Shown piece after piece: positions 44,109-51,840 of a stretch of DNA of 64,000 nucleotides (its first letter is position 1; every line of letters starts with the position of its first letter). The notes beneath the pieces are model-generated. The model saw nothing but the letters and a program-made list of their open reading frames with translations, did no database searches and was not told where the DNA came from. The stretch comes from Sphingopyxis sp. 113P3 (lineage in GTDB: Bacteria > Pseudomonadota > Alphaproteobacteria > Sphingomonadales > Sphingomonadaceae): assembly GCF_001278035.1 (NCBI RefSeq), contig NZ_CP009452.1, forward strand, positions 3,071,501 through 3,135,500, written 5' to 3'. The position numbers and the translations under genes are program-made.

Positions 44109-44726
44109 TCAGGCGGCCGGATAGGTCCAGCTGCCGCCGCGGGCGAGATTCTCGGCCGCGAAATCCCAGTTCAGAAGCTCATCGACGACCGCATTCACAT
44201 AGTCGGGGCGGACATTCTTGCGGTCGATATAATAGGCATGTTCCCACACGTCGATGACGAGGAGCGGGGTGATACCCGCGGTCAGCTCGGTTCCCGCGTC
44301 ATGGGTGTCAGTGACCGACAGCGCGCCGTCGCGCGAGACGAGCCACGCCCAGCCCGACGCGAAATGGTTGACCGCGGTGTCCTTCAGCTTCTTTTTCAGT
44401 TCATCAAGCGAACCGAAGTCGCGGTCGATCGCAGCGGCGAGATCACCCGAGGGCGCGGTCTTCGCGGGCGACAGGCTATTCCAGTAGAAGGCGTGATTCC
44501 AGGATTGAGCGCTGTTGTTGAAGAGACCCTTGTTCCCCGACCCTTCGGCGTGGTGGATGATTTCCTCAAGGCTCTTGTCCGCAAGTTCGGTGCCCTCGAT
44601 CGCGGCATTGACCTTGTCGACATAGGTTTTGTGATGCTTGCCATGGTGCGTCGCGAGCGTGTCGGCCGAAATATGGGGCGCCAGCGCGTCCTGGGCGTAG
44701 GGCAGCGGCGGGAAAGCGATCGTCAT
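44109..44726 (-). CDS. sodB: Superoxide dismutase, Fe/Mn type
   Basis: Dismutates superoxide in the cytoplasm. 205 residues from MTIAFPPLPYAQDALAPHIS. The four metal ligands fall in THHGKHHKTYV (His), SWNHAFYWNS (His) and VIDVWEHAYYIDR (Asp and His). The sequence GLFNNSAQSWNHAFYW with Gln in place favours iron. In-frame upstream codons lack any SOD similarity. Confidence 0.96.
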   Translation of the reverse strand: MTIAFPPLPYAQDALAPHISADTLATHHGKHHKTYVDKVNAAIEGTELADKSLEEIIHHAEGSGNKGLFNNSAQSWNHAFYWNSLSPAKTAPSGDLAAAIDRDFGSLDELKKKLKDTAVNHFASGWAWLVSRDGALSVTDTHDAGTELTAGITPLLVIDVWEHAYYIDRKNVRPDYVNAVVDELLNWDFAAENLARGGSWTYPAA

Positions 44727-44827
44727 GACAGTCTCCGTTTTCTTTTGCAGATGGCCTCTAATTCGACCCTTCCTCCGGCAGTTGCAAGCCCCTGGGCAGG
44801 CAATTTTTCTTTCCCCGCCTTCAAGAA

Positions 44828-46411
44828 TCACGTCGCCATTGCACGCAATGTCGCAATACGATCGGCCTCTTCGGCTGGCTTGTCGCGGCGGATGCGCGAA
44901 ATGCGCGGAAAGCGCATGGCGAGGCCCGACTTGTGCCGCTTCGAGGCGTGAATCGAATCGAACGCAACTTCGAGTACCAGCGTCTTTTCGACCTCGCGCA
45001 CCGGGCCGAAGCGGCCAATCGTGTGATCGCGGACGAATTTGTCGAGCCATTTCAGCTCTTCGTCGGTGAAGCCCGAATAGGCCTTGCCCACCGGCAACAA
45101 TTCGCCCGCATCGGTCCAGCAGCCGAAGGTATAATCCGAATAGAAGCTTGCACGGCGCCCGTTACCGCGCTGCGCATACATCATGACGCAATCGGCAACG
45201 AGCGGGTCGCGCTTCCATTTGTACCAGAGCCCTGCCCGGCGACCCGCGATATAGGGCGCGTCGCGGCGCTTGAGCATCACCCCCTCGATCGCGGCGTCGC
45301 GGGCGCCGGCGCGCAAGGTCGCAAGTTCCTCGAAATGCGCCGCCTCGATCACGGGCGAGAGGTCGAAATGGCTCGCCGCGAGGCGCGGCACGAAACCCTC
45401 CAGCTGGCGCCGCCGCTCATGCCATGGCAGGGCGCGCAAGTCGGCCCCGTCGACCGCAATCAGGTCATAGACGCGCACGAAGGCGGGATAGTCGGCGAGC
45501 ATCTTTCTTGTCACCGTCTTGCGCCCCAGCCGCTGCTGAAGCGCGTTGAAGCTTGCCGCGCCACCCTCGGCCCCGCCCTGCGCCTCGCCGCGAACAAGCA
45601 GTTCGCCGTCGATCACCGCGTCCTGGTCAAAGGCAGCAAGAAGTTCGGGAAAAGCCCCGCCGATCTCCTCGCCGCCACGGCTGTAAATACGCGTCTCGCC
45701 GCCTCCGTGGACGAGCTGGACGCGGATTCCGTCCCATTTCCATTCGGCCGCGAAATCGGAAAGGTCGATGCTCTCGCCCTCGAGCGGATGAGCGAGCATG
45801 AAGGGGCGGAAGAAGGCGACATCGGTAAGGTCGGGGCGCGGCGCCTTGCCCTCGCCCCAGGCAAAAAGCGTCGTATAGGGAGGCGGGATCGCGTGCCACA
45901 GTTCTTCGACATCGTCGATGGAGACATCAAAGGCCTGCGCAAAGGCCTGTTTCGCGAGCCGCGCCGAAACGCCGACGCGCATGCCCCCGAGCGCAAGCTT
46001 GAGCAGGGCATAGCGGCCGTCGCCGTCGAGCCGGTCGAGCAGCGAGGTGAGAATGGCCGGGGCGTCACCTCGTGTCGCGCGCGACAGCGCATCGACTGCC
46101 TGCGCGACGGACAATTCCTCTGCCTCTTTCCCGAGCGCCGCCTCGGGCCAAAGCAGCGCCGCCGTCTCGGCGGTATCGCCGACGAAATGGCGCGACAGGC
46201 GGAACAATTCCTCGTCGACGCGGGCGCCGAGCAAGGCGCGCACCGTTCCCGCCTTGACCGCCGGAAAATCCAGCGCGTCGGTCAAGGCCGCGAGCGCCCA
46301 GCCGCGATCGGGATCGGGGGTGTGCCGGACATAGTCGACGATCAGCGCCAGCTTGCTGTTGCGCGAGCGCGTGTAGACAAGCCGGTCGATGAGAGCCGCG
46401 AAGCGCTTCAC
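44828..46411 (-). CDS. ATP-dependent DNA ligase (LigC/bacterial repair type)
   Basis: Seals nicks with ATP, separate from the NAD-dependent replicative ligase. 527 residues: an N-terminal DNA-binding domain (about 1-200), then the nucleotidyltransferase core with the adenylated Lys225 in EWKWDGIRVQ, VIDGELLVRG, EGVMLKRRDAPYIAG and WYKWKRD, and an OB-fold C-terminus. The start overlaps the exonuclease stop (ATGA), so the two are coupled. It is the last gene of the four-gene repair operon that begins at 50092. Confidence 0.93.
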   Translation of the reverse strand: MKRFAALIDRLVYTRSRNSKLALIVDYVRHTPDPDRGWALAALTDALDFPAVKAGTVRALLGARVDEELFRLSRHFVGDTAETAALLWPEAALGKEAEELSVAQAVDALSRATRGDAPAILTSLLDRLDGDGRYALLKLALGGMRVGVSARLAKQAFAQAFDVSIDDVEELWHAIPPPYTTLFAWGEGKAPRPDLTDVAFFRPFMLAHPLEGESIDLSDFAAEWKWDGIRVQLVHGGGETRIYSRGGEEIGGAFPELLAAFDQDAVIDGELLVRGEAQGGAEGGAASFNALQQRLGRKTVTRKMLADYPAFVRVYDLIAVDGADLRALPWHERRRQLEGFVPRLAASHFDLSPVIEAAHFEELATLRAGARDAAIEGVMLKRRDAPYIAGRRAGLWYKWKRDPLVADCVMMYAQRGNGRRASFYSDYTFGCWTDAGELLPVGKAYSGFTDEELKWLDKFVRDHTIGRFGPVREVEKTLVLEVAFDSIHASKRHKSGLAMRFPRISRIRRDKPAEEADRIATLRAMAT

Positions 46412-47421
46412 GCCTCTTCCTCCTGATCACGGCCGATCAAGTGGAGCGCCCGCGCCTTGCGCTGGGTGAGCTCGCACCAGCGCAGCAACCCTTCCTCGCT
46501 GCCGTGGGTGATCCAGCTTTCCTGTGGGTTCACCTCGGCGATCGTGGCGGTGAGTTCGTCCCAGTCGGCATGGTCGGAAATGACAAGCGGCAATTCGACC
46601 ATCCGCTGCCGTGCGCGCTGGCGCACACGCATCCAGCCCGATGCCATGGCGGTGACCGGGTCGGGAAGCCGCCGCGACCAGCGGTCGTTCAGCGCCGAGG
46701 GCGGTGCAAGAACGATCTGACCTGCCATCGCATCCTTGGCGCTTTCGCTGACAAGCCGCAGTTCGCCGAGATGGACTCCATGATCGGCATAAAGAGCGCA
46801 CATGCGCTCGAGCCCCCCGTGAATGAAGATGGGCGCTTGCCAGCCTGCAGCGCGCAGCTCGGCGATCACCCGCTGCGCCTTGCCGAACGCATAGGCACCG
46901 ACAAGCACACAGCGGTCGGGCTCGGCGCGCACCGCGGCGAGCAGCTTGGCAATTTCGCCTTCGGTCGGCGGGTGCCGGAACACCGGAAGGCCAAAAGTCG
47001 CCTCGGTAATGAAGATATCACAGGGAACGATTTCAAATCGCGCGCAGGTGGGGTCGGCGCGGCGCTTGTAGTCACCGGTGACGACGATCCGCTCGCCTTG
47101 ATATTCCATCAGGATTTGCGCACTGCCAAGGACATGCCCCGCGGGATGAAAACTGAAGCGTACCCCGCCACGCTCAAACCCCTCGCCGTAGGCAATGGCC
47201 TGATTATGGTGTGCCGCGATATCGACGCCGTAGCGCAGCGCCATGATCGCAAGCGTCTCCGGCGTCGCGAAAACCGCATGATGGCCGCTGCGTGCGTGGT
47301 CGGCATGGCCATGCGTCACCGCGGCGCGCTCGACGGCGCGCGCAGGGTCGATCCACAGGTCTGCGGGCCGCACGTAAAGCCCGTGGGGATGCGGTTCGAG
47401 CCATGTCTTGGCCCTTGCCAT
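46408..47421 (-). CDS. Ligase-associated DNA exonuclease (metallo-beta-lactamase/CASP fold)
   Basis: 337-residue nuclease of the family named for its linkage to ATP-dependent ligases. Metal motifs: THGHADHARSGH (about 34-45), VVTGDYKRRADPTC, HPAGHVLGSAQIL and the CASP-region ISDHADWDEL. The overlap with the UdgX stop is 1 nt and with the ligase start 4 nt, so the four genes are translated in series. The common third partner, an Lhr-type helicase, is not adjacent here. Confidence 0.92.
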   Translation of the reverse strand: MARAKTWLEPHPHGLYVRPADLWIDPARAVERAAVTHGHADHARSGHHAVFATPETLAIMALRYGVDIAAHHNQAIAYGEGFERGGVRFSFHPAGHVLGSAQILMEYQGERIVVTGDYKRRADPTCARFEIVPCDIFITEATFGLPVFRHPPTEGEIAKLLAAVRAEPDRCVLVGAYAFGKAQRVIAELRAAGWQAPIFIHGGLERMCALYADHGVHLGELRLVSESAKDAMAGQIVLAPPSALNDRWSRRLPDPVTAMASGWMRVRQRARQRMVELPLVISDHADWDELTATIAEVNPQESWITHGSEEGLLRWCELTQRKARALHLIGRDQEEEA

Positions 47422-48845
47422 CAGGCAGCTAGATCCCGTGCGCGGGCGAGGTCGGCGACAAAAGCTGCGCGCTCGGACGCTGCGCGTCGCTTGTCGGGCA
47501 TGCGCAGCAGGAAGGAGGGGTGGATCGTCGCGATCAGCTGACCTCCGCCATCGAGCCGGTGCACCCGGCCGCGCATCGACTTGATGCTTGCCGTCTTGCC
47601 AGTCACGCCGCGCAGCGCGCTTGCGCCCAAGGTTATGATCAGGTCAGGCTTTACGAGCGCCCGCTCCTTGTCGAGCCACCAGCGGCACGCGTCGATCTCG
47701 CCCGCGCTGGGGTTCTGGTGCAACCGCCTCTTGCCGCGAGCTATGAATTTGAAATGTTTCACCGCGTTGGTCAAAAATAGCTGCCGCCGGTCGAGCCCCG
47801 CTTCGGCGATCGCTGTATCCAGCAATTGTCCCGCCGGGCCCACGAAGGGGCGACCCTGCAAATCTTCCTGGTCGCCCGGCTGTTCGCCGACAAGCATGAC
47901 GCGCGCCATTTTCGGCCCCTCGCCCGCTACGCCCTGCGTCGCGTTGCAATAAAGCGGGCAACGTTTGCATCTGTCGACGGCGCGCGCGAGCCCTTCGAGC
48001 GTCGATACATCGTCGGGGGCGTTATCCTCGGGCACACGCGTCCGCCATTTCTCGGTCAAGGGGTTCGCCGAAGAAACGGCCGCTTCGCGCATGCGTTCCG
48101 CTCGCGCCTCGGCACCCGCGACGAGCGACGCTATATCCTCAGCCTCGGGCAGATTTTTCCAGTATTTCTTGGGCATTTCAGCGCGCATCGCGGCGATCTT
48201 TACCCGCGCCGGATTGAAAATTGCGCCATAATAGGTGCGCCATTGTTCCTCGACGACGTCGGTGTCGGGCACTTCATCCCTGCTCCCGCCGGGACCATAG
48301 GTCAGTGTCTCATTCCGCCAGATCGCACGAGCATCGGGCGTCACGATCGCCCAGTCCATCCCAAAAAAGCGCCGCTGGAAAAAGGGAGCGGCCAAGGGGA
48401 TGATCCTGTGCGATGGCTCGAACCATGCCACGAAACACTCACGCCCCGCCTCCTCGCCGAGGCGGCGGAAACGCACGAAGGCATGCATCTTGTGGACATC
48501 GCGGCGGATCGCCTTGTCGGCCTTGCGCAGCCAATCGATATCGGGGTCGGCCCCCCGCGCGAGTAACTGCTTGTCGTGCGCTGCGCGCCAGATGATCCGG
48601 TAGAGGCGCGCAGGCACATCGGCATCCCTGTGGCAGATTACCCGCTCGGCCACCTCGATCAGCTCGCGCGGCAGGTTCACGGGCGCTCCCGACCGGGGAA
48701 GGCTCCCCTCGCCGAACAGCGATGCACCCGCGGAGCCGACGCGCCAGCCCACCTCCTCGGGCGCGACCCCGCCCGCAAGCAAGCGGCGCGCCGCACTTCG
48801 CCACGCGTCAAAGTCCCCCGGTTTTTCAAGCTGCACATCTTTCAT
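47421..48845 (-). CDS. udgX: DUF4130-UdgX fusion, uracil-DNA binding/glycosylase
   Basis: 474 residues in two modules. The N-terminal DUF4130 part (about 1-270) contains CHRDADVPARLYRIIWRAAHDKQLLARG and HKMHAFVRFRR. The C-terminal UdgX-type domain (about 285-474) has Fe-S cysteines C293/C296/C300 and C387, the uracil pocket GEQPGDQEDLQGRPFVGPAGQLLD (320-343), NAVKHFKF and GKRRLH (371-376). The His of KRRxH is the residue that bonds covalently to the uracil site in known UdgX; here the fourth position is Leu instead of the usual Ile. Overlaps the radical SAM gene by an ATGA junction. Confidence 0.93.
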   Translation of the reverse strand: MKDVQLEKPGDFDAWRSAARRLLAGGVAPEEVGWRVGSAGASLFGEGSLPRSGAPVNLPRELIEVAERVICHRDADVPARLYRIIWRAAHDKQLLARGADPDIDWLRKADKAIRRDVHKMHAFVRFRRLGEEAGRECFVAWFEPSHRIIPLAAPFFQRRFFGMDWAIVTPDARAIWRNETLTYGPGGSRDEVPDTDVVEEQWRTYYGAIFNPARVKIAAMRAEMPKKYWKNLPEAEDIASLVAGAEARAERMREAAVSSANPLTEKWRTRVPEDNAPDDVSTLEGLARAVDRCKRCPLYCNATQGVAGEGPKMARVMLVGEQPGDQEDLQGRPFVGPAGQLLDTAIAEAGLDRRQLFLTNAVKHFKFIARGKRRLHQNPSAGEIDACRWWLDKERALVKPDLIITLGASALRGVTGKTASIKSMRGRVHRLDGGGQLIATIHPSFLLRMPDKRRAASERAAFVADLARARDLAA

Positions 48846-50092
48846 AGCGCGAGTGCCAATTGTTCAGCCGGCGGCGCAAAGCGCGCGCGCAGTTCGGCGC
48901 TGTCGGTCAGCGAACCCGGCCGCCAGTCGGGAGTGACGATGAAGGGAAGCAGCTTCTTCACCGATGCAGTAAATCGGGCGAGGTCGCCCAGCCGGAGCCG
49001 CCCCAGCCGCCGGGCCGCGACAATGCGATCGACAGCGCGTGTTCCAAGTCCCGGCACGCGCAGCAAGAGCTCGCGCGGCGCGCGGTTGATGTCGACGGGA
49101 AATATCTCGCGCCGCTGGAGCGCCCAGGCGAGCTTGGGGTCGATCGCAAGGTCGAGCATACCGTCCTTGGCGCCCTCCAGGATCTCGGTCCGCTCGAACC
49201 CGTAGAAACGCAGCAGCCAGTCGGCCTGATACAGACGGTGCTCGCGCATCAGCGGCGGGCGCAGCGGTGGCAGGTCGCTGCTTGCGTCGGGGATCGGACT
49301 GTACGCCGAACAATAGACGCGGCGGAGCTGGTATCCTGAATAGAGATTGGTCGCGGTCTTGAGAATATCATCATCGCGGGCGGCATCGGCGCCAACGATC
49401 ATCTGCGTCGATTGTCCTGCCGGGGCAAAACGCGGGGGCCTTGCCTTGCCGATGAGCCGGCTTCTTGCCGCTTCGATCGCCTCGGATTCGCCGACGCGCA
49501 CCGACGCCATCGTCTTGCGGATCGTCTCGCGCTTCTTCTCGGGAGCAAAGCTCGCCAGCCCGTCTTCGGTGGGCAGTTCGACGTTGGTTGAAAGGCGGTC
49601 GGCATAAAGTCCCGCCAGCGCCACCAGGCCCGGATCGGCACCCGCGATAGTCTTGAGATGAATATAACCCTGAAAGCGATGCTCCTCGCGCAGCAGGCGT
49701 GCGACCTCGACGAGCTGCTCCATCGTATAATCTTCCGAGCGAATGATGCCCGACGAAAGAAAGAGCCCCTCGATATAGTTGCGCTTGTAGAAATCGAGCG
49801 TCAGGCGAACCACTTCTGCAGGGCTGAACCGTGCGCGCTCGACGTTGCTCGAAGCGCGATTGATGCAGAAGCGGCAGTCGTAAATGCAAAAGTTGGTGAG
49901 CAGTATCTTGAGCAGCGAAATGCACCGGCCGTCGGGGGCATAACTATGGCAAATCCCCATGCCTTCGGTTGAACCGATGCCCTTCGTTCGGCTCGAATCG
50001 CGTTTCACCGTGCCCGACGAGGCGCAGGAGGCGTCATATTTTGCGGCGTCGGCCAATATGGCCAGCTTTTGGAGAATCGGTTTTCCGGACAT
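48842..50092 (-). CDS. Radical SAM protein linked to UDG (putative DNA repair)
   Basis: 416 residues with the CxxxCxxC cluster at C69/C73/C76 (FCIYDCRFCIN), then the TIM-barrel (FLSSGIIRSEDYTMEQLVEVARLL and GYIHLKTIAGADPG). The C-terminal helix-hairpin-helix is VDINRAPRELLLRVPGLGTRAVDRIVAAR, a DNA-binding element. It resembles the radical SAM family paired with DUF4130-UdgX, proposed to act on damaged DNA. I chose ATG 50092 (MSGKPILQKLAILADAAKYDASC). A LexA-type box lies 20 bp upstream. Confidence 0.93.
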   Translation of the reverse strand: MSGKPILQKLAILADAAKYDASCASSGTVKRDSSRTKGIGSTEGMGICHSYAPDGRCISLLKILLTNFCIYDCRFCINRASSNVERARFSPAEVVRLTLDFYKRNYIEGLFLSSGIIRSEDYTMEQLVEVARLLREEHRFQGYIHLKTIAGADPGLVALAGLYADRLSTNVELPTEDGLASFAPEKKRETIRKTMASVRVGESEAIEAARSRLIGKARPPRFAPAGQSTQMIVGADAARDDDILKTATNLYSGYQLRRVYCSAYSPIPDASSDLPPLRPPLMREHRLYQADWLLRFYGFERTEILEGAKDGMLDLAIDPKLAWALQRREIFPVDINRAPRELLLRVPGLGTRAVDRIVAARRLGRLRLGDLARFTASVKKLLPFIVTPDWRPGSLTDSAELRARFAPPAEQLALAL

Positions 50093-50111
50093 GCGCCCAT
50101 GAATAGCATGG

Positions 50112-50126
50112 GAACATATGGCGAAC
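50112..50126 (-). promoter_or_regulatory. Probable LexA (SOS) box
   Basis: GAACATATGGCGAAC, which on the coding strand is GTTC-N7-GTTC, the alphaproteobacterial LexA direct repeat. It ends 20 bp before the radical SAM start and so commands the whole four-gene repair operon. The TATG before the second GTTC on the coding strand (CATATGTTC) is also typical. Confidence 0.75.
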
Positions 50127-50147
50127 AAATAATCTGGGTTAAGCGGT

Positions 50148-51686
50148 CTATGCCTCGCGCCAGCGGGCGGGGAGCGAGATTTCGACGATGAGTCCGCCGG
50201 GGTCCCAGCGCCGCTCGATCGTTCCGCCCAGATTGTTTCGCACGCTGCGTTCGATGAGCAACGTGCCAAAGCCCGTGCGGTCGGGCGCGGAAACTTCGCC
50301 CGGGGCGCCGCTTTCTTTCCACGTCATCCGGAACTGCCGCTCACCCCCGTCGCCTGGGTCATTTGCCCAACGCACCTCAACCTTGCCACGTTCGCCCGAC
50401 AGCGCGCCATGCTTGGCCGCATTGGTCGCAAGCTCGTTGAGGAGCAGTGCCATTGCGACCAGCGAATTTTCGGGAAGCAGCAAGTCCGGGCCCGACCAGC
50501 GCACCCCGGGGAAGGCCGCCTCGACCTCGCGCATCAAGGCATGCATCGACCCGGTCATGAAATTGGCGCCGAGCAGGACATTCTGCGCGCGGTTGAGCGC
50601 ATCGAGCCGGCTGCTGATCCGCTCGACATAGTCATCGACGTCACGGGCCGAATGCCGGGTCAGCGAGATGATCGCGCCCACGGTGGCGAAAAGGTTTCGC
50701 ATCCTGTGATGGAGCTCGCGCATCAAAAGATTGGCATTCTCCTGCCGGCTTTTCTGTTCGGTGATGTCGACGTTAATGCCCGTCAGGATCGCCTCGTCGC
50801 GCCGCACGTCCCAGTCGGCGCGGCCCGCGAGCCAGCGCACGCCGCGCTCGGGGTGCAAAACGCGAAATTCGCTGGCATAGAGGGTGCCATTGTCGATGGC
50901 TTGGTCAAGTGCCGCGCGAACCAGCGACCGGTCGTCAGGGTGGATGCGCTCGAAAACTCCGTCGAGCGATGCAAGAGCAACCTCATAATCCGCGCCCCAT
51001 AACTCGCCAACCGCGCCGCGCCAACGCACCGCGCCGTCGTTCACATGGAGCTGCCAGATCGCTATGCTCGAATAATCGAGCGCGCGTTCAAGGATGTGGC
51101 GCGCTTCATCGCGCTCGACCGCCGTGCGCCGCAATTCCGCCTCCGCCATGATGATGGCTGCGAAATCCTCAAGCCGCTCGACCTCGCGCGGGCCAAGCGG
51201 ATCCCGGGTCTTGCGGTCCATGACGCTGAGGGCGCCGAGCACGGCGCCATTATGCGCGCTCAGCGGCACCCCGGCATAGAATCGGATTGCAGCCTCGCCT
51301 GTGACGAGCGGATTGTCCCGAAAACGCGGGTCATGCGACGGGTCGGTGACAAGGAGCGGCCCGCCGCCCTTTATGACATGGTGGCAAAAACCGACGTCGC
51401 GCGGCAATTCGGTAAGGTCAAGACCTTGCGCCGATTTGAACCATTGCCGTTGATCGTCAACGAAGGAAATGAGAGCGATCGGCGCGTCGAAGAGGTCAGC
51501 GACCAACTTGGAAACTCGGTCAAAGGCCACCTCGGGCCTGCTCCCCATGATGCGATATTCGCGAAGGGTCTGCAGCCGCCAGCGTTCATCCCGTGAAGCC
51601 CCCTCTTCCCCACCTTTCGCCAATGGATGCCCCTCGCCTCCTGCGTGCGCCTTGGCGCCGCTCTGTTCCCGGGGCCGCTGTGCCAT
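50148..51686 (-). CDS. HWE-family sensor histidine kinase (GAF-PAS)
   Basis: Membrane-free sensor kinase. GAF domain about residues 40-170 (FDAPIALISFVDDQRQWFKS and VTGEAAIRFYAGVPLSAHNGAVLGALSVMD), PAS domain about 195-310 ending VDITEQKSRQ, then the HWE_HK block MRELHHRMRNLFATVGAI and the N-box LLNELATNAAKHGALSG. HWE kinases feed PhyR in the general stress response. ATG at 51686 has TAGGGA eight nt upstream; an in-frame ATG at 51749 would add 21 residues. It is divergent from phyR. Confidence 0.9.
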   Translation of the reverse strand: MAQRPREQSGAKAHAGGEGHPLAKGGEEGASRDERWRLQTLREYRIMGSRPEVAFDRVSKLVADLFDAPIALISFVDDQRQWFKSAQGLDLTELPRDVGFCHHVIKGGGPLLVTDPSHDPRFRDNPLVTGEAAIRFYAGVPLSAHNGAVLGALSVMDRKTRDPLGPREVERLEDFAAIIMAEAELRRTAVERDEARHILERALDYSSIAIWQLHVNDGAVRWRGAVGELWGADYEVALASLDGVFERIHPDDRSLVRAALDQAIDNGTLYASEFRVLHPERGVRWLAGRADWDVRRDEAILTGINVDITEQKSRQENANLLMRELHHRMRNLFATVGAIISLTRHSARDVDDYVERISSRLDALNRAQNVLLGANFMTGSMHALMREVEAAFPGVRWSGPDLLLPENSLVAMALLLNELATNAAKHGALSGERGKVEVRWANDPGDGGERQFRMTWKESGAPGEVSAPDRTGFGTLLIERSVRNNLGGTIERRWDPGGLIVEISLPARWREA

Positions 51687-51840
51687 GAAATCGGTCCCTA
51701 CAAAAGCATCGTCGTCCTTTTGAGGATTGATCGGCGGCCTGCCGAACATTCCCGGAGGACCGCATCACCGTCCCGGGAGTGTCTACGCATCCGCCGACGA
51801 CAAGTTGCAGGGCCAGGGCGGGCTTTTTTGAACAGGTCAC

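Follow-up and report, generated by a model that had tools for sequence, protein, structure and literature searches.

The window analysed here, a 64,000-nucleotide stretch of Sphingopyxis sp. 113P3 (NZ_CP009452.1, positions 3,071,501 to 3,135,500), carries a minus-strand run of four overlapping genes that encode, in order, a radical SAM protein, a DUF4130-UdgX fusion, an exonuclease and a DNA ligase, and that lie behind a LexA-type operator. Gene calls place the radical SAM gene at 48842..50092 (416 aa), the fusion at 47421..48845 (474 aa), the exonuclease at 46408..47421 (337 aa) and the ligase, which starts with GTG, at 44828..46411 (527 aa); the junctions overlap by 4, 1 and 4 nt. A first-pass annotation had proposed a repair operon of these families with junction overlaps of 1–4 nt, and it holds: all products exceed their NCBIfam cut-offs, with 553 bits against 343.5 for the radical SAM protein (TIGR03916), 310 against 190 (TIGR03914) and 188 against 112 (TIGR03915) for the fusion, 458 against 325 for the ligase-associated DNA damage response exonuclease (TIGR04122) and 769 against 400 for the ATP-dependent ligase (TIGR04120). 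The operator, GTTC-N7-GTTC (GTTCGCCATATGTTC, 50112..50126, minus strand), ends 19 nt ahead of the radical SAM ATG, essentially where it had been reported (20 bp).

The score of the radical SAM protein, its CxxxCxxC motif (residues 69–76) and its radical SAM barrel place it in the TIGR03916 family, the radical SAM proteins linked to uracil-DNA glycosylase (UDG); a helix-hairpin-helix match (HHH_3) at its C-terminus stays under Pfam's cut-off. Three further cysteines (23, 48 and 57), outside CxxxCxxC, are invariant and possibly hold an auxiliary cluster. The fusion has the three motifs of UdgX, GEQPG at 320–324 (motif A), KRRLH at 372–376 (R-loop) and HPSFLLR at 442–448 (motif B), whose roles are described in PMC10359453; with the TIGR03914 score they identify it as a UdgX. 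Mycobacterium smegmatis UdgX (6ajo, 8iie; PMC10359453) shares these motifs (GEQPG, KRR-x-H, HPS-x-LLR) and matches fusion residues 281–472 in phmmer with an E-value of 7e-52; unlike that protein, as presented in the available text, the UdgX here follows DUF4130 in a single polypeptide and has a radical SAM protein encoded alongside, and it stands alone in five loci of the genus. The exonuclease belongs to the metallo-β-lactamase family, with a distant likeness to CPSF73-type nucleases and HGHAD at residues 37–41, the ligase carries KWDG at 225–228, and the two genes adjoin with both products above cut-off, which identifies them as the TIGR04122–TIGR04120 pair. We take CxxxCxxC, HGHAD and KWDG as marks of activity in the radical SAM protein, exonuclease and ligase, the TIGR04120 ligase to be of the bacterial LigB type and the radical SAM protein to correspond to COG4277.

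A single match to the bare box proves little, because the window contains three against 1.76 expected, 27 of 100 shuffles reach three or more, and the genome holds 116 against 93 for the reversed pattern; we therefore rejected the bare count as evidence. The tighter form GTTCN5WTGTTC occurs 25 times genome-wide against 8 for its control. What raises the box above chance is its placement ahead of the radical SAM gene in relatives. Among 80 Sphingopyxis genomes, TIGR03916 has matches in 54 (53 over cut-off) and TIGR04122 in 75 (72 over cut-off). We examined 51 radical SAM loci, that is, all over cut-off except the window and G050, where the gene is split across two contigs; the sub-threshold match in G054 was also left out. 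All 50 loci with more than 60 nt of upstream sequence have the exact box within 75 nt of the gene, compared with 0/50 for the reversed control and an average of 0.06 of 50 for base shuffles, although these loci are related and hence not 50 independent events. The eight half-site bases are invariant in the genus alignment and most spacer bases vary. A putative sigma-70-like promoter read by eye, TTGTTC-N17-TATTCA (50100..50128, minus strand), overlaps the operator, and in the alignment of this region TTTGTTC and TGCTA are mostly kept.

Gene order is conserved as well. Radical SAM, UdgX and exonuclease genes are contiguous in 48 of the 51 loci, or 48 of the 50 that allow a judgement; of the others, L183 is cut short by its contig, and L176 and L186 come from genomes that carry the exonuclease at another place. 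The ligase adjoins in 45 of the 48 (the contigs of L167 and L194 run out too early, and L149 has a ligase match that starts late). Absence of order and box from related genomes had been named beforehand as one finding that would speak against the operon; within the genus both persist. The three strict UdgX motifs are present in 51 of 56 loci with a UdgX match, the remaining five being three partial matches and two proteins that deviate in motif B. No box was found within 150 nt ahead of the exonuclease in genus loci holding all four genes.

The genome encodes LexA (166 bits), with the motif 40 nt ahead of the lexA coding match. The motif also precedes recA, radA and a umuD-like gene, all three over the family cut-off, two imuA-like genes that fall short of theirs, and uvrA, which is truncated at the end of its locus and for that reason scores under the whole-protein cut-off. 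SRAP-like and AlkB-like genes with the motif were recognized by eye, and the SRAP-like one matches no NCBIfam model; several others of the 25 tighter-form sites fall ahead of, or within, genes not evidently connected with repair. The locus has the sequence features of an Alphaproteobacterial LexA regulon: an operator near a putative promoter, a lexA gene with its own motif and an operator kept in relatives. GTTC(N7)GTTC is given as the Caulobacter LexA consensus (PMC12907096), and in Sphingopyxis granuli TFA anoxia is reported to induce lexA, recA, radA, dinG, two imu operons, SRAP genes and alkB (PMC6472365); one six-gene row of the TFA table is labelled only SRAP proteins. In strain 113P3 a second radical SAM gene (L011; PA0069 family, over cut-off) lies directly behind a tighter-form box.

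Outside the genus, the box accompanies the front pair. Among the best 80 public radical SAM loci of at least 593 relatives, UdgX follows on the same strand in 78, and in the remaining two the contigs stop 0.1 and 0.7 kb behind the radical SAM gene. An exact box precedes the pair in 74; the six misses are four Xanthomonas or Stenotrophomonas loci and two with one mismatch. GEQPG is present in 64, KxRxH in 60 and strict motif B in 45 of the 66 full-length UdgX proteins from these loci. Only one of the 80, from Sphingopyxis bauzanensis (L030), has the exonuclease and ligase co-directional with the pair. Operators in this set (L030–L109) mostly read GAAC-N7-GAAC, commonly ∼ 17 nt ahead of the start, compared with the GTTC orientation and ∼ 33 nt ahead of the radical SAM start in Sphingopyxis.

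Two wider samples were scanned, with adjacency read by eye from coordinates. Of 233 non-genus genomes of the order, 111 carry the radical SAM marker, 126 the exonuclease and 106 both, and the co-directional unit occurs in 0/106 of those carrying both. The gene-order survey of Sphingomonadales that the first-pass annotation had called for bears out its proposal within the genus but not beyond it. The pairs do come near each other in places: they are divergent and adjoining with a box between them in G204 (L239), ∼ 4 kb apart with Lhr between in G117 and G257, and ∼ 10 kb apart in G228. In a class sample of 385 genomes, 25 carry the radical SAM marker, 102 the exonuclease and 22 both; the four-gene unit is found only in the window's own genome, and in G639 the pairs are divergent and 3.3 kb apart. 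Brevundimonas bullata (L041) has phosphoesterase, Lhr, ligase and exonuclease genes beside a divergent radical SAM–UdgX pair, with one box between the halves.

Natural variants within Sphingopyxis separate the two pairs. The unit is flanked upstream by a co-directional GAF-PAS-HWE histidine kinase gene (50148..51749, minus strand) and downstream by an Fe/Mn superoxide dismutase gene (44109..44732, minus strand), syntenic neighbours that lie outside it. We examined 22 genus exonuclease loci lacking a neighbouring radical SAM gene: three (L198, L214, L216) are outside the slot ahead of the superoxide dismutase and 19 occupy it. The box is retained in 11 of these 19, ahead of either the exonuclease or a stand-alone UdgX. 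In detail, exonuclease–ligase stands alone in 14 (box present in nine, absent in five), and in five a stand-alone UdgX precedes it (box present in two, absent in three). The latter loci (L196, L200, L202, L207, L212) have UdgX directly ahead of exonuclease–ligase with neither DUF4130 nor radical SAM, and L196 has its usual neighbour on the downstream side only. In G063 the pairs lie apart, each with a box of its own (L186, L215). A quick exonuclease–ligase tree with 47 full-state rows, the window included, spreads the full state across the genus and requires seven changes; 24 of its 69 inner branches are open and some outgroup branches are long. Loci in which exonuclease and ligase were not both present, or the exonuclease was below 60% identity, were left out (L167, L176, L183, L186, L194, L198, L214, L216). 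The tree is compatible with an old unit whose front genes were lost repeatedly, and we infer loss rather than gain.

Taken together, the four genes most probably form a LexA-repressed (SOS) operon of Sphingopyxis in which exonuclease–ligase arrived behind a radical SAM–UdgX pair already under control of the box. Since elsewhere the box goes with radical SAM–UdgX and not with the exonuclease, and since 11 of the 19 slot loci retain it after the radical SAM gene is gone, exonuclease–ligase has apparently been captured by the SOS regulon. Four observations weigh against this. First, eight of the 19 slot loci (five exonuclease-only, three UdgX-only) have no exact box, so that SOS control of exonuclease–ligase is dispensable. 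Second, the 300 nt upstream of the exonuclease contain a box in 0/22 non-genus loci chosen regardless of adjacency; 20 were chosen one per genus, and of six further loci four were chosen for nearness, as was L041. Of the five chosen for nearness three do have a box: two of these boxes lie in a spacer shared by divergent genes, and the third within Lhr. Third, the SOS table rows for strain TFA, in the available text of PMC6472365, do not include the four-gene unit, the carriage of which by TFA was not checked. Fourth, with the stop of the HWE kinase gene 21 nt ahead of the operator, a terminator would hardly fit in between, and read-through could contribute a basal level of expression.

The short distance to the kinase also raises the idea that exonuclease–ligase is a passenger of the HWE kinase transcript and that the box matters to the front genes only. 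In the five box-less exonuclease-only slot loci (L195, L203, L204, L206, L210) the exonuclease indeed starts close behind the HWE gene. However, nine of the 14 exonuclease-only slot loci keep the box ahead of the exonuclease, and we consider a passenger origin decidedly improbable.

Under SOS control of the operon, exonuclease and ligase would have come to lie directly behind a radical SAM/DUF4130-UdgX pair that is LexA-boxed in the Alphaproteobacteria generally. DNA damage would activate RecA, LexA would be cleaved and leave 50112–50126, and a single transcript, as the operator, the overlapping genes and their conservation suggest, would supply all four proteins. Studied UdgX remains covalently bound to the abasic site, as described in PMC10359453, so the plain lesion-recognition glycosylase of the first-pass annotation is not the right picture. 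By analogy with the mycobacterial protein, UdgX would excise uracil and stay bound through the R-loop histidine, His376, capping the abasic site. The radical SAM protein and DUF4130 may act, at some step, on the same class of damage, and from their family activities the exonuclease would trim damaged ends and the ligase seal nicks.

Whether these activities are coupled is a separate question within SOS control of the operon. One linear pathway, as first proposed, would run from recognition by UdgX through processing by radical SAM/DUF4130 and trimming by the exonuclease to sealing by the ligase. The overlap of all four genes is consistent with it, as is the gathering of the pairs outside the genus, divergent with a box between them in L041 and G204 and near each other in G117, G257 and G639. 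Strong co-occurrence outside the genus points the same way, in that 106 of 111 radical SAM carriers in the order sample also have the exonuclease, compared with 126/233 overall, but this comparison is uncontrolled for, and confounded by, phylogeny. Moreover, the front genes are absent from many genus loci where exonuclease–ligase persists, studied UdgX caps the site instead of opening it (PMC10359453), and the Lhr helicase and phosphoesterase are encoded elsewhere. A linear pathway is plausible but unlikely in our view. A single SOS pathway dedicated to UdgX-capped uracil/abasic sites, with radical SAM and DUF4130 resolving the capped site or readying it and with exonuclease and ligase completing the repair, we hold to be quite unlikely.

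There is about an even chance that the operon combines two independent repair tools that share one SOS promoter and have no biochemical coupling. The pairs lie apart in nearly all order- and class-sample genomes that carry both, and in G063 the halves are separate under boxes of their own. Likewise, 0 of 376 matching plasmid records cover 80% of the unit at one place, and each of the 10 plasmid rows listed covers one pair. Conservation of the order in most genus loci and the clustering elsewhere nevertheless suggest more than a random join. Shared SOS control of the four genes, as predicted from the sequence comparisons, is well supported, and capping and sealing need not form one linear pathway. 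Thus of the original proposal of a joined SOS unit acting as a single pathway, the one operon, its box and the order kept across most of the genus stand, and the linear pathway stays a proposal. The plasmid result also led us to reject a mobile unit, phage records not having been searched.

The first-pass annotation was right that both pairs are already known separately. A LexA-regulated COG1573–COG4277 two-gene operon is described in Bacteroidetes, and UDG-based systems are reported from Verrucomicrobia and Alphaproteobacteria as well (PMC8565304, where Erill 2016 and da Rocha 2008 are cited on the SOS-regulated pair). Like that operon, the unit here has a radical SAM and a UDG-family gene behind a LexA site; unlike it, as far as the available text goes, exonuclease and ligase continue the same overlapping unit. 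SOS neighbourhoods with DUF4130, an SplB-like radical SAM protein and a uracil glycosylase have also been described (Aravind 2013, PMC3765255), but in the part of that paper available they contain no exonuclease of the TIGR04122 family and their ligases accompany Ku. With the LigB-Lhr-phosphoesterase-nuclease operon (cf. Ejaz and Shuman 2018, through a citing source) the unit has the exonuclease and ligase components in common; it differs from what is described there in that exonuclease–ligase is behind UdgX and a LexA box. It does not belong to that class of operon, since Lhr helicase and phosphoesterase are not in the cluster but at C1:4366592-4370787, 1.2 Mb away, and no exact box was found in the 11 kb around them. 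SOS control of the radical SAM–UdgX pair has already been reported, and the joining to, and capture of, exonuclease–ligase is apparently new as far as searched; no description of the four-gene unit was found in the literature searched, which leaves out most subscription journals, and the available text of PMC6473078, PMC12907096, PMC518961 and PMC1839093 yielded nothing decisive.

According to the available text of PMC10140301, it is not currently known what damage the LigB-type ligase operon deals with. Through the LexA box the SOS response would gain control of a nuclease and a ligase whose role is unknown, and because these two share the box with a protein of known target, uracil or abasic DNA, a testable hypothesis about their substrate follows. 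If a capped-site pathway were true, it would give the orphan LigB–exonuclease pair a substrate, and capture by the LexA regulon, if true, would allow the assembly of a pathway to be traced. The genus variants (full unit, UdgX-only, exonuclease–ligase with and without box) are well suited to testing whether the halves need each other.

We also considered non-homologous end-joining (NHEJ), given that the ligase is ATP-dependent and Ku is encoded in the genome. However, Ku is ∼ 0.33 Mb distant, and the ligase passes TIGR04120 but no NHEJ/LigD ligase model at cut-off. Membership in an NHEJ system is hardly credible and was rejected. A defence element was rejected as well, since none of the four proteins had a PADLOC match. 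In sequence searches against the PDB the fusion matched through its UdgX part alone, and the radical SAM protein had no usable relative. The 50 listed fold matches of the radical SAM model do not name SplB, which carries no weight either way. Weak DHH-like matches for the DUF4130 fold (DHH/DHHA1 phosphoesterases) provide a lead.

Between operator and start codon lies an inverted repeat, CCCATG-CTATT-CATGGG (50096..50112, minus strand), whose loop contains the putative −10. Counted over all 41 distinct versions in 51 genus rows, 81.9% of cells are paired versus 74.4 in shuffles, with 20 double changes versus 8.0 and a covariation of 0.350 versus 0.214; 0/500 shuffles, which ignore relatedness, were as high. 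The repeat pairs badly in the clade with a T-rich box (L181, L182, L184, L185, L189, L191–L193). Its many G–U pairs suggest that it may act as RNA, but the putative −10 lies in its loop. It is this covariation that supports the repeat: the window copy by itself is unremarkable (−9.8 kcal, z −1.39, 44/500 shuffles as low). Folding was compared for the 36 nt behind 11 boxes, with 300 background 36-mers giving a median of −9.4 kcal; stems behind eight other boxed genes of the window's genome did not stand out. The stems at L024 and L007 are lower in energy, at −17.0 kcal behind the box of the umuD-like gene (4/500 shuffles as low) and −15.7 kcal behind that of the AlkB-like gene (44/500), and we rejected the idea that the repeat is unique to the four-gene unit within the genome because these two genes also have stems. 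The box of the umuD-like gene (L024) is at G000:C2:121087-121101, on the second contig (243 kb).

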